NCBI GenBank assembly: GCA_010909725.1
Contig: JAACMV010000002.1
Coordinates: 992,001-1,056,000, forward strand
Source of the DNA: Picochlorum sp. 'celeri'
Taxonomy: Eukaryota; Chlorophyta; Trebouxiophyceae
Direction: 5' to 3'
Length of the DNA: 64,000 bases
Below, piece after piece: positions 5,112 to 48,181 of the stretch (its first letter is position 1; each line of letters starts with the position of its first letter). The position numbers were made by a program, and so were the translations under genes. The notes beneath the pieces are model-generated. The model was not told where the DNA came from, made no database searches, and saw nothing but the letters and a program-made list of their open reading frames with translations.

Positions 5112-5488
5112 TTTGTATGAAATTGAGCAAAGATTCAATCTTTTTTCTCAGTTTTTATTTATTTACTTATTGTGAATTATCTGTTGTGAATGATGATGAT
5201 GATGAATACTATTGGTGAAGAATCTTCTGATGCCGCGTCAGCATCATCATCATGATTCAAATGTGTGGCCAGGATTGATTGCAGATTCTTCATAGGGCAT
5301 TGGATGAATGGCATTATTATTTAAACGTCACGTCTTCTTAATTCTCATATTTTATTAGGAATACGCTACATATATGAACACAATGTACATATAAGAATAG
5401 CTGGCTTGGGGGTGACCCAAGTTTCTCCGCGAGTGATTTTGGCCTTTCTATTCCTCAGATATTCAGGGATTTCATATATCCTGTATCA
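5112..5488. other. Intergenic region upstream of fasciclin gene and permuted tRNA
   Basis: AT-rich sequence with short GAT and ATC runs. It should contain the promoter of the minus-strand fasciclin gene and the leader of the permuted tRNA transcript. The last part (5473-5488) contains the leader bases that can pair with the tRNA halves. No reading frame or other structured element is convincing here. Confidence 0.5.
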
Positions 5489-5615
5489 TCCATATTCGAA
5501 AGAGCGCAGGTTCGAACCCTGTCACGATCAATACATGGTACCGGAGTTTCGAAATCGATAGGAACTTCCCATCAAAGCGATCGTGTGGCCGAGCGGTTAA
5601 GGCGTATGGGTAAGG
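5489..5615 (+). tRNA. Circularly permuted tRNA-Leu(AAG) gene, 3' half before 5' half
   Basis: The 3' half (5489-5530) reads: T38, anticodon-stem CCATA (5490-5494), an 11-nt variable arm, T stem GCAGG/CCTGT with loop TTCGAAC (5506-5522), acceptor CACGATC (5523-5529), discriminator A (5530). A 48-nt spacer follows. The 5' half (5579-5615) reads: acceptor GATCGTG, T8 G9, D arm GCC/GGC with loop GAGCGGTTAA, G26, anticodon stem TATGG, then G T A A G G giving U33 and anticodon AAG. The two halves pair 7/7 in the acceptor stem and 5/5 in the anticodon stem, so the split lies at 37/38. A73 and the long variable arm fit tRNA-Leu. The B box (GGTTCGAACCC) precedes a perfect A box (TGGCCGAGCGG). Leader 5480-5486 can pair with 5610-5615, leaving a 3-nt bulge (5487-5489) with the expected endonuclease site at 5488/5489. 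Processing would be ligation to a circle, then end trimming. Confidence 0.9.
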
Positions 5616-5650
5616 TCTTTAATTAGAACATTAAATATGTTCCGATTACC

Positions 5651-5655
5651 TTTTT
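5651..5655 (+). terminator. Candidate RNA polymerase III terminator (T5)
   Basis: A run of five T residues lies 36 bases after the last base of the 5' tRNA half. It is the first T-run of that length downstream and is a plausible Pol III termination site for the permuted pre-tRNA. The stretch between the half and this run would form the trailer. Confidence 0.5.
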
Positions 5656-5670
5656 GCAACATCTCCGTTT

Positions 5671-5724
5671 GAGGCAGGTGCACCACTTGGTGCAGCTTCC
5701 AGCACCAAGTGGTGCACCTGCTTC
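5671..5724. repeat. Long near-perfect hairpin (23 bp stem, 8-nt loop)
   Basis: Bases 5674-5693 and 5702-5721 are exact reverse complements (20 bp) around the loop AGCTTCCA; three further pairs (one G-T) extend the stem to 5671 and 5724. The stem is built around GGTGCACC and GGTGC motifs. It lies 16 bases after the Pol III-type T run. Two diverged copies of TTAGAACATTAAA flank it at 5623-5635 and 5778-5790. It could be a mobile-element remnant, a structured RNA or a transcription barrier; nothing in it identifies a family. Confidence 0.85.
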
Positions 5725-44738: not shown

Positions 44739-47700
44739 CTACTTGTCCTCTTTGAGAACTGCAGACACACGCTGCAAGTTTCCGGCAACACGCTCGACTT
44801 CTCCAATTTGTTCATTGAGTTTTCTTTTATCCTCCTCATCAATGTAATCTCCCACATCTTCTGTAGCCTTTCTGATATCTGCAATTGTGTTTTCTGGGAG
44901 AGGAGTGGGTGACGGTCTGTCCAGAGGGCTGATTGATGTTCTTGCAGTTGCAAGGGTCTGAGAAACTCTAGCGAGTGATGGTGGGGCCTTTCCTGACATT
45001 TTCTTGGACACAAGTCTTTCGATTCCTGAGATGGCGGCATCAATCTTTCTTCCGAGCAACTTCTTCTCGACCCTTCCGGTCGCTTCTGGACCAATGTCGG
45101 CATCAGAAGGCTTGGCTGCAGATCTGACATTAACAAGAGCTGCAGTCCTTGCCTGGAAGATATCAAACTTGAGCAAGAACCAATACAAGATCACCTTCAT
45201 CAGATCTTGTACGAAGAAGAAGACAATACAGTAAATCCATACCCACAACGGCCACAAATTATACTCCTCAAATGGAGAGTTGTCATCATGGACATTGAGA
45301 CCTTGCACCTGAACACCATCAATCTGACCCTTTGGCCACAAACATCCCAAGATTGTCGAGATACCAAGTGCAAGCGTTGCAGCAGCAAAGAGAATCAGTC
45401 CCGGTCTATGACTCCAGAAGCCTCCTGGACTAGTTCTGGCAGCAAACAATGTCAGGAAATCTGAGAGCGATACCTTGAGATAAATCAATGTAACAATCTG
45501 ACCATAGGCTGGAACTGGAAGTCCCCATTCTTCAAACAACGATCCGCAGCTTGGAGAGTCCAATGCTGCCCATAACATGAGTAGGGATGTTCCCATGGAC
45601 ACCAAGCCCAACACTGCTGATGCCGTGAATAAAACTCTGAGGTTCCACTTTTCTGGTCTGGGAGATGGGTTTGCTCTGTCATATCCAACAGAAATGAGGG
45701 TACCATCGTTCAACACGGTAATCAGGAGAAGCAAGATGACTGGGAGCTGGAAGAATGCTGGGCATTTCACCTCGTAGTCACATGTCTCGACATAATTGTC
45801 AACACACTCGCTGTATCCATCCTCATTGAACCTCACAGTGTTAGTCACACCATTCCTGCATATATTAATATATCCGGTCTTGATGTCGTGCGTCTCTCCA
45901 TCTGATGATGTATAGGTATTGATTTCGTTGTAGCAGTAGTACTTGTCTGGTGGGAACGCAAAGACTGTGATGAAGAAGAAGATGAGGAGCTGCAATGTAG
46001 CAGCAATACGGTAGTTGATAAAGTTCTGCACTCTCTGGAAAATGCATCTGGCCACAAATATGGCATGAATCAGAACGGAAAGTCCTGGCTCTGTGAGAAC
46101 AATATCAGCTGCTGCCCTTGCTGCATCAGTCGCACCAGACACTGCAATTCCGACATCAGCTCTCTTCAATGCTGGAGCATCATTCACACCATCACCAGTC
46201 ATACCAACAGCAAATCCTTGCTGTCTCAATGCCTCAACAATAAGATACTTGTGCTCTGGGAATACCTGTGCGAATCCATCTGCTTCGAGAATAAACCTTC
46301 CATATTTTTCCTTCAAATCAGGGGGTGCTTTGCCATTCTCATCGAGTTCTGGCAGACCTGATGCATCGGGAATATTGGTTCCCAACCCCAGAATTCTACT
46401 CATTTCCTTGGCGATCAGAACCTGATCACCAGTGACCATCTTCACATCCACGCCAGCCTCCAAGGCAGCATCAATCGTTGCCTTTGTATCTGGTCTTGGT
46501 GGATCCAGGAATGTTAACACACCAAGAATGGCCCATTCAGACATATTTGCATCTGTTGTGATTGCCACAGAAAGGCATCGAATTCCCTTTGCCCCCTGAA
46601 TCTGCACCTCTGCTCTCACTCTCTCGCGAATAGTCTCATCCGTTGTCAATGCTGCCACAATCTGTGGCGCACCCTTGGTCACCTTGAAGGTCTTTCCATC
46701 AGGTCCCTTGATTGTCGATTCTGTTCTCTTCAAAATAGGATCAAATGGCATATGATCAAGCATTTCATAGCTCTCCAAAGCATCCAAGTCGGCAGCCCCC
46801 AACACCATTGTATCCAAGGCATCCTTGGCAGGCTCCTTCCACTTGGCAGCAAGTGCAGCGTACTGCACAACAGACTTCATATCCTTTGCGTATTCAGAAT
46901 ATGTTGGGCAGTGCTCCTGGATCATCATCGTATTCAATGTCAATGTTCCAGTCTTATCTGAGCACAACATATTCATTCCAGCCATCTCCTCAATGGACGC
47001 AAGGCGAGTCACAATGGCACCGTGCTTGGACAGCTGGCGAGATCCCAATGCAAGAGTTGTCGTACAAACAATCTCAATGGCAATAGGAATGGAAGCGACG
47101 AGCAACACAACTGCGAAAGAAAGAGCCTTGGTAAATGGCTCACCCTCTGCCACTGTCAAGTAGATGAGGGCAGTAATACAGAGTGTCAAAGACATGATAA
47201 TCAACACGGCCATGATCTTCAAAAGCAATTTTTGAAGAGATCCAAGATCATCATCACCAGAGAGCAACATGGCAGTTTTACCGAAAAAGGTATTCTTTCC
47301 AGTAAACTCCACTGTTCCCTCCACCTCACCTCTGGTGATTGTACTTCCCATCTTTGGTCGAGATCCCCTCACCATTGTGACAGGAAGAGATTCACCGGTC
47401 AAAGCAGACTGGTCGACTTCAATACGTCCCTCATTCACAATACAGTCGGCTGGTACGGCAGCTCCAGCACAGAGAAGCACCAAATCACCAGGCACAATCT
47501 GTGTTGCATCCATCTCCTGCCACTTTCCATTACGCTTTGCAGTTGCCTTGGGCTTCAAAGAAGCTTTCAACGCAGCTACAGCGTCAGCAGCCTTGATTGT
47601 TTCATACCATCCCAAGGTGGCATTCAAGAACTGGATGCCCAACAGGATGATGGCATCAATCCAGTTGGTTCCAGGACTTCCCTCAGTCACCGCGTTTGCA

Positions 47701-48181
47701 ATGGTAATACCGACTTCGACAAAAATAGCAATCCAAATCATAATAGGCATTGGTGCCACAAGCAACTTGAGGTAGATCACCAGCTTGGATGTCTTCTTCT
47801 CCACAAGTTCGTTTGGTCCATACTCGGCCAACAACTTCGCAGCCTCTGCATGCATATGCGATTTCATGGTTAGGCGCGTATGGGTGCCACTAAAATCATT
47901 TTGAATACTTTAAAAATAAATGTATCACGCATGCATTCCAATTAACGCCACTATCGCAAGCAAGCCTGCGAATCTGTGCGCAACGACGCACCATCGTCCG
48001 TGAGCCCTGTGGAGGCCTCAAAGTCCTCTAGCTTATCCTCGTGTGACAATGCTTTTTTGACATCATCTTGAGGATTGTGGCCAGTTAATTTGTCCTTCTC
48101 CTGGCGAGCAAACTCAGCCAGGTCCTCCCCAACCTCCTTGAGGTCTTCGCCGACCTTTTTCAGATCGTTCTTTTTCCCCAT
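44739..48181 (-). CDS. P-type (P3A) plasma membrane H+-ATPase
   Basis: Exon 1 (47992-48181) and exon 2 (44739-47845) join over a 146-nt intron with a GTGCGT donor and a ATGCAG acceptor, restoring GLTDDEAAKLLAEYGPNEL at the junction; total 1,098 residues. The catalytic Asp is in CSDKTGTLT, the actuator loop TGES is in ALTGESLPV, and the hinge motif is in GMTGDGVNDAPALK. About ten membrane segments are visible. Pumps of this class create the proton gradient for nutrient uptake. It is longer than plant AHAs (about 950), with an extra Cys-rich extracellular loop near residue 720 and a C-terminal tail of over 100 charged residues. Confidence 0.93.

Follow-up and report, generated by a model that had tools for sequence, protein, structure and literature searches.

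Permuted tRNA genes are known from Cyanidioschyzon merolae, prasinophytes, nucleomorphs and the archaeal Thermofilum (PMC3978253; PMC4494063). In C. merolae (Soma 2007, cited in PMC3978253) the 3' half of the tRNA precedes the 5' half, an upstream element and a T-stretch accompany the genes, and a circular intermediate has been shown; according to the same review, 11 of 43 tRNA genes are permuted, with four junction types, and Leu(CAG) is split at 37/38. The prasinophytes Ostreococcus and Micromonas (Maruyama 2010, cited in PMC3978253, Table 1) carry genes of type II, with the junction at 37/38 and a helix-bulge-helix motif. The table gives three to six permuted genes per prasinophyte species, among which Cys(GCA), Leu(TAA), Ser(GCT) and Ser(AGA) each occur in at least one species, and prasinophyte spacers of up to 64 nt, the range over the whole table being 1-74 nt. 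Auxenochlorella UTEX 250-A (PMC12636532, 2025) is described as a trebouxiophyte relative with permuted tRNA genes, the tRNAscan-SE set of which was incomplete until these genes were found. For Picochlorum, no report of permuted tRNA genes was found in the literature searched, which was mostly non-subscription; the genome paper on Picochlorum SENEW3 used tRNAscan-SE, and its text contains no word beginning with "permut". The sequence-only reading of the locus described here had named C. merolae, prasinophytes and nucleomorphs as hosts, a correct list that omits Thermofilum and Auxenochlorella.

The locus lies in Picochlorum sp. 'celeri', in a stretch of 64,000 nt (positions 992,001 to 1,056,000 of contig JAACMV010000002.1, here C2) which was analyzed as a whole and is called the window. 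It is almost certainly a functional nuclear tRNA-Leu(AAG) gene permuted at position 37/38 and one of a large set in this alga; judged by its sequence, the gene is of a known kind, in a genus for which we found no report. As in C. merolae, the 3' half comes first, the set as a whole shows a candidate upstream element and downstream T-stretches, and a Leu(CAG) gene is permuted at 37/38; the circle, shown in C. merolae, is predicted in P. celeri, and all 16 genes of the P. celeri set have the 37/38 junction, the finder being limited to this type. Junction type and motif are shared with the prasinophytes, as are permuted Cys(GCA), Leu(TAA), Ser(GCT) and Ser(AGA), whereas P. celeri has at least 16 permuted genes, spacers of up to 128 nt and a permuted Leu(AAG), which is absent from the review's Table 1. 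The set thus exceeds the published counts compared, those of C. merolae and the prasinophytes, Auxenochlorella standing outside the comparison.

Table 1. Features of the permuted tRNA-Leu(AAG) gene (positions within the window).
Feature	Position	Strand	Remarks
Leader	5449..5488	+	first 40 nt upstream; 5484-5486 pair with loop positions 34-32
3-nt bulge	5487-5489	+	predicted cut between 5488 and 5489
tRNA-Leu 3' half	5489..5530	+	same in all 4 genomic copies found
U38	5489	+	part of 3' half
Anticodon-stem 3' strand	5490-5494	+	part of 3' half
Variable arm	5495-5505	+	part of 3' half
T arm/B box	5506-5522	+	part of 3' half
Acceptor 3' strand	5523-5529	+	
A73	5530	+	
Spacer	5531..5578	+	48 nt, without TTTT; removal predicted from PMC3978253
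tRNA-Leu 5' half	5579..5615	+	from sequence, finder and ARAGORN on joined halves
Acceptor 5' strand	5579-5585	+	
U8	5586	+	
D arm/A box	5588-5603	+	part of 5' half
Anticodon-stem 5' strand	5605-5609	+	
Loop positions 32-37	5610-5615		
Anticodon AAG	5612-5614		
Trailer	5616..5655	+	ends in T5 (5651-5655), candidate Pol III terminator

The 3' half of the tRNA lies upstream of its own 5' half on the same strand, with a short spacer in between (Table 1), exactly as the sequence-only reading had placed them; the conventional order, in which the 5' half stands upstream of the 3' half with or without an intron, was tested at this locus and not found. Joined at 37/38, with the exact nucleotide of the cut being a prediction, the 5' half of 37 nt and the 3' half of 42 nt give a canonical class II tRNA of 79 nt. 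The pairings previously claimed across the halves hold in full, with 7/7 pairs in the acceptor stem, all of them Watson-Crick, and 5/5 in the anticodon stem (TATGG/CCATA). So do U33, G37 and A73, an A box in the D arm, a B box in the T arm and a Leu-type variable arm, which measures 11 nt. U8 is present as well, the T arm (GCAGG-TTCGAAC-CCTGT) pairs at 5/5 positions including one G-U, the D stem consists of three pairs and one mismatch, and the anticodon loop reads G32 U33 A34 A35 G36 G37 U38. A tRNA search on the joined halves had been proposed together with the original claim; ARAGORN called tRNA-Leu(aag) on them and called no tRNA in the genomic order of the locus, and a scan of the window at the Rfam gathering threshold missed the gene. 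An ARAGORN call of tRNA-Val(aac) at 45650-45729 is probably false, being located inside the frame of a P-type ATPase (44739-47867, minus strand) and showing no tRNA features by eye. Just 3' of the Leu(AAG) gene, at 5671-5724, lies a 23-bp inverted repeat with a loop of 8 nt; the other haplotype (L002) carries the reverse complement of this loop, as would result from a flip of the hairpin loop. Elsewhere in the window, the named algal relatives of a methylmalonyl-CoA mutase include Micractinium, Prototheca and Auxenochlorella.

For the statistics, a strict rule was applied to the matches of the permuted-gene finder, requiring U33 together with 7/7 acceptor, 5/5 anticodon and 5/5 T-stem pairs. 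On both strands of the 64-kb window the finder returned a single match, Leu(AAG), which passes this rule. Third-order Markov sequence modelled on the window yielded no strict match in 16 Mb and none in a further 240 Mb (256 Mb in total); without the strict rule the same sequences gave 35 and 487 matches, which is why only strict matches were counted. Folding was less distinctive. The 161-nt precursor is no more stable than its shuffles (z 0.27), and its minimum-energy fold forms the acceptor, T, D and anticodon stems with the anticodon stem lengthened and the bulge-helix absent; a 181-nt stretch folds differently. Among the 16 joined tRNAs of the set, minimum-energy folds judged by eye were four-armed in four cases (Cys, Ala TGC, Ala CGC and Leu AAG, the last with a lengthened anticodon stem).

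The assembly searched comprises 27.41 Mb on 30 contigs, and pairs of contigs match position by position as two haplotypes, in line with the 27.43 Mbp, two sets of 15 scaffolds and 46% GC given for Picochlorum celeri by Becker et al. (PMC7225527). The Leu unit was found four times, on C2 and C22 (97%) and on C11 and C19 (85%), which corresponds to two loci on two haplotypes. At the second locus (C11/C19) the 3' half is identical and TTCAGG replaces GTAAGG in the loop, which makes it a permuted tRNA-Leu(CAG). That tRNA-like pieces came together by chance, or that the halves were exchanged in error during assembly, is exceedingly improbable: nothing was found in favour of either, the strict matches missing from 256 Mb of model sequence speak against chance, and a local misjoin does not explain the layout, because the same order recurs on both haplotypes at all four loci for which both were fetched, and in 16 distinct genes.

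These genes emerged from a partial survey of the genome. Loci were gathered with B-box patterns and then scanned with the permuted-gene finder, so that all counts are lower bounds. The pattern GGTTCRANYCC occurs at 187 places, of which 96 of the 100 listed and five others were examined; of the 53 places with AGTTCGANYCT, the 26 on one haplotype were examined; CGTTCGANYCG (50 places) and TGTTCGANYCA (136) were counted, the new places among them lying outside the survey. An Rfam tRNA search of the genome gave scores for 63 of 866 candidates. On roughly one haplotype, and with the window gene included, we identified at least 16 permuted genes for 15 isoacceptors: Leu (AAG, CAG and TAA), Ser (GCT and AGA), Cys (GCA), Gly (GCC), Ala (AGC, CGC and TGC), Arg (TCT and two genes for TCG), elongator Met (CAT) and Thr (CGT and AGT). 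For Met(CAT) and Thr(CGT) a variable length of 5 nt was set by hand. The halves stand in the same order throughout, with spacers of 11-128 nt, and ARAGORN called the expected tRNA on 16/16 joined sequences and on 0/16 in genomic order. Base 73 is G in the Ser and Arg genes, U in Cys and A in the rest, which matches the isotype expectation. The two permuted Arg(TCG) genes (C8:59353 and C8:537665; L095 and L098) are nearly identical, lie in opposite orientation on the same chromosome and have a spacer of 128 nt; each gene has a match to TGTTCGACTCA about 6.1 kb upstream, which may point to an inverted duplication of larger extent.

In the same surveyed material ARAGORN found 22 conventional genes, many of them intron-bearing, a count that leaves aside three spurious or doubtful calls (L057, L069 and L112) as well as repeat loci and alleles on the second haplotype. 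Anticodons re-read by hand are Leu(CAA) in L033, Arg(ACG) in L101, Arg(CCG) in L029, Ser(TGA) in L055 and Pro(TGG) in L125. Within the surveyed material no isoacceptor occurred in both permuted and conventional form, with L112 regarded as uncertain and L018, a Met gene, assigned to the initiator; ARAGORN calls L112 Ser(AGA) with a poor fold, and a genuine L112 would give the permuted Ser(AGA) a conventional counterpart. Genes for tRNA-Asn and tRNA-Phe (L009, L025 and L028) are directly preceded by a common B-box-like stretch GGTCCCGGGTTCAAA (1483-1500 in L009), as if a truncated tRNA had been fused upstream.

The genome check for a standard tRNA-Leu(AAG), also proposed with the sequence-only reading, could be answered in part. 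BLAST with the joined Leu tRNA found no conventional Leu(AAG) gene and reported separate halves at the four permuted places only, but the search loses diverged matches, and the 5' halves of both Leu(CAG) copies went unreported in it. Joined Cys(GCA) gave halves at its two permuted alleles only and joined Gly(GCC) at permuted loci only. With joined Ala(TGC), no pair of halves in conventional order was reported; both halves appeared, in permuted order, at C4 and at C30:266426, and the 3' half alone at two other places, one of which corresponds in position to the permuted Ala(CGC) gene of the other haplotype. This search missed the known permuted Ala(CGC) on C10 and Ala(AGC) on C4. Since known permuted genes and halves escaped these searches, a diverged conventional copy could escape them too. 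The Ala-like gene at C30:266426-266512 was read in permuted order from the BLAST match, its 5' piece being weak (E 1.7), and the permuted Ala(AGC) at C4:267382 (minus strand) has no AGTTCGANYCT counterpart on C30; the C30 gene could be an inverted or diverged Ala(AGC) allele or a separate gene.

These searches also bear on the idea that the two halves are a silent relic, unexpressed remnants of a tandem tRNA duplication. Permuted genes have been proposed to arise, among other routes, by duplication and subsequent loss of the outer segments (PMC3978253, section 10). However, no conventional replacement copy was found with the lossy BLAST, no second same-strand copy of either half was present in the 16 fetched stretches of 361-3137 nt, and Cys and Gly(GCC), for which no other copy was found, share the permuted layout. 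Furthermore, the two Leu(AAG) alleles are the same at 79/79 tRNA positions, while the spacer differs at 4/48 and the flanks differ as well. Over four loci, of which Leu(CAG) is identical between alleles throughout, changes were counted at 0/313 positions in halves, 4/155 in spacers and 52/11326 in flanks. As about 1.4 changes in the halves would be expected at the flank rate, 0/313 is not significant and the allele result is only suggestive. Taken with the leader complementarity described below, these observations make a silent relic very unlikely, and we retain the reading as a functional permuted gene.

The leaders, which the finder had ignored, were examined in a register test in which bases -3 to -6 were set against each gene's own loop bases 32 to 35. 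In 15 genes, 49 of 60 positions paired (G-U counted), compared with 35.1 (sd 3.0) when leaders were shuffled among genes, and the observed 49 was reached in 0/5000 shuffles; at offsets 1, 2 and 4-8 pairing was at chance level. Ser(GCT) is off the predicted register with 1/4 pairs and fits one base further when read by eye. For Leu(AAG), the pairing of leader and anticodon loop around a 3-nt bulge, which had been claimed earlier, is real but modest: three of four pairs form, one of them a wobble (G32-U5486, U33-A5485 and A34-U5484, followed by a mismatch), so that the bulge-helix is apparent in the 15-gene set and weak in this gene alone, whose fold lacks the motif. The test supports a processing of these predicted precursors through the bulge-helix register, and the gene-specific complementarity across the set argues against silent remnants. 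Structure, the set of like genes and the leader register together uphold the original assignment as a circularly permuted tRNA-Leu(AAG).

Candidate transcription signals were counted as well. A run of four or more T occurs within 40 nt after the 5' half in 15/15 permuted genes and TTTT in 0/15 spacers (523 nt); Leu(AAG) has both features. The trailer count alone is not strong evidence, because TTTT is also found in 9/15 leaders (80 nt each). The 5' half of Leu(TAA) itself holds TTTT. Upstream, AAATTC is the commonest hexamer between -60 and -15 in both permuted and conventional genes, occurring in 8/15 and 11/22, respectively (counted by start position; 10 conventional genes by hexamer tally, and 10/22 if L031 is used instead of its allele L032; L143 and L144 had less than 60 nt upstream). 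Across the window, which is mostly coding, the hexamer has a background frequency of 1.3% per 45 nt; the motif had been spotted before the counting began. Its distribution suggests a shared upstream Pol III element, although the exact hexamer is absent from the Leu(AAG) leader. For C. merolae an upstream element has been proposed, the reversed A and B boxes being thought unsuitable for TFIIIC (PMC3978253, section 5).

The same halves and junction would also serve a split tRNA, whose halves are transcribed separately and then joined by trans-splicing, as known for split tRNA genes of archaea (PMC3218864). In P. celeri, however, the halves lie 11-128 nt apart and in the same order in 16/16 genes, and the absence of TTTT from the 15 spacers tested, combined with T-runs after the 5' half, fits one transcript; circles have moreover been detected in other algae (PMC3978253). 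Trans-joining of separately transcribed halves is accordingly a highly improbable explanation compared with a single permuted gene.

By analogy to other algae, for which a pathway with a circular intermediate has been demonstrated (PMC3978253, sections 5 and 6), the cell probably has to make its permuted tRNAs through circular RNA, and for Leu(AAG) we infer transcription, cutting, a circle and aminoacylation. Pol III would start upstream and end at the downstream T-run, producing one linear transcript of leader, 3' half, spacer, 5' half and trailer. The two halves would fold into a cloverleaf with its open end in the anticodon loop, and the leader would pair with loop positions 32-35, leaving a 3-nt bulge. 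A Sen2/Sen34 splicing endonuclease would then cut after 37 and before 38, a ligase would close the molecule into a circle between 37 and 38, the spacer would be excised by RNase P and tRNase Z, and CCA would be added. Sen34-like and Sen2-like genes were both matched in the genome. Copies of the Sen2-like gene with 3.2 kb of surrounding sequence, 99-100% identical, are present on C9, C12, C26 (1564-1779), C21, C25, C10 and C16; five copies were compared with L128, and C9 is known as a match only. The recurrence may represent a real multicopy segment or an assembly effect.

A covariation model was built from 10 of the 16 permuted genes with variable arms trimmed, as MAFFT with full spacers misaligned the arms; Ser(AGA), the second Arg(TCG), Ala(AGC), Met, Thr(CGT) and Thr(AGT) were left out of the alignment. 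In these 10 genes every cell of the two helices formed between the halves, acceptor and anticodon, is paired (100%), and both partners vary at 6/7 acceptor and 4/5 anticodon pairs. Covariation over the whole structure scores 0.907, compared with 0.236 after shuffling; since the rows were preselected by a finder that demands pairing, covariation describes the set rather than testing it. The match of the model in the window begins at 5495, owing to the trimmed variable arms, and is not independent, because Leu(AAG) is part of the model.

Comparison of flanking sequences was informative about the origin of the set. Leu(AAG) and Leu(CAG) (L001/L004) are alike over 304 nt downstream from position 38 or the adjoining base (73%), and Ala(TGC) and Ala(CGC) (L071/L104) over 332 nt from about three bases before the 3' half (83%), and in both pairs the leaders upstream are unlike. 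For Ala(AGC), the Thr pair and Leu(TAA) the similarity is shorter or absent. Because the likeness runs from the 3' half past the trailer and leaves the leader apart, genes which were already permuted seem to have duplicated and changed their anticodon, with the leader replaced or diverged to match the new loop.

A more far-reaching reading would make permutation a main and indispensable tRNA architecture of this alga (16/38 tRNA genes identified in the survey), with codon boxes served by permuted genes alone and with permuted genes that multiply and change isoacceptor. All Ala, Cys, AGY-Ser, GGY-Gly and CUY/CUG-Leu boxes could be of this kind, and a leader that differs and matches the new anticodon loop would mean that decoding and splice-site recognition co-evolve. 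We consider this wider reading evenly balanced between true and false, a weight lowered slightly because known genes escaped the searches for conventional copies.

Standard tRNA annotation can miss permuted genes. Should the apparent size of the set hold, this fast-growing alga would rely on circular pre-tRNAs to decode several amino acids. The paralogue pairs, which differ in anticodon, indicate that a permuted gene can gain a decoding role while its splice site is kept. Gene editing is reported to be possible in the genus Picochlorum. With such a dependence, the question why permuted genes persist could be tested directly by swapping a permuted gene that is the sole source of its tRNA for a conventional one.
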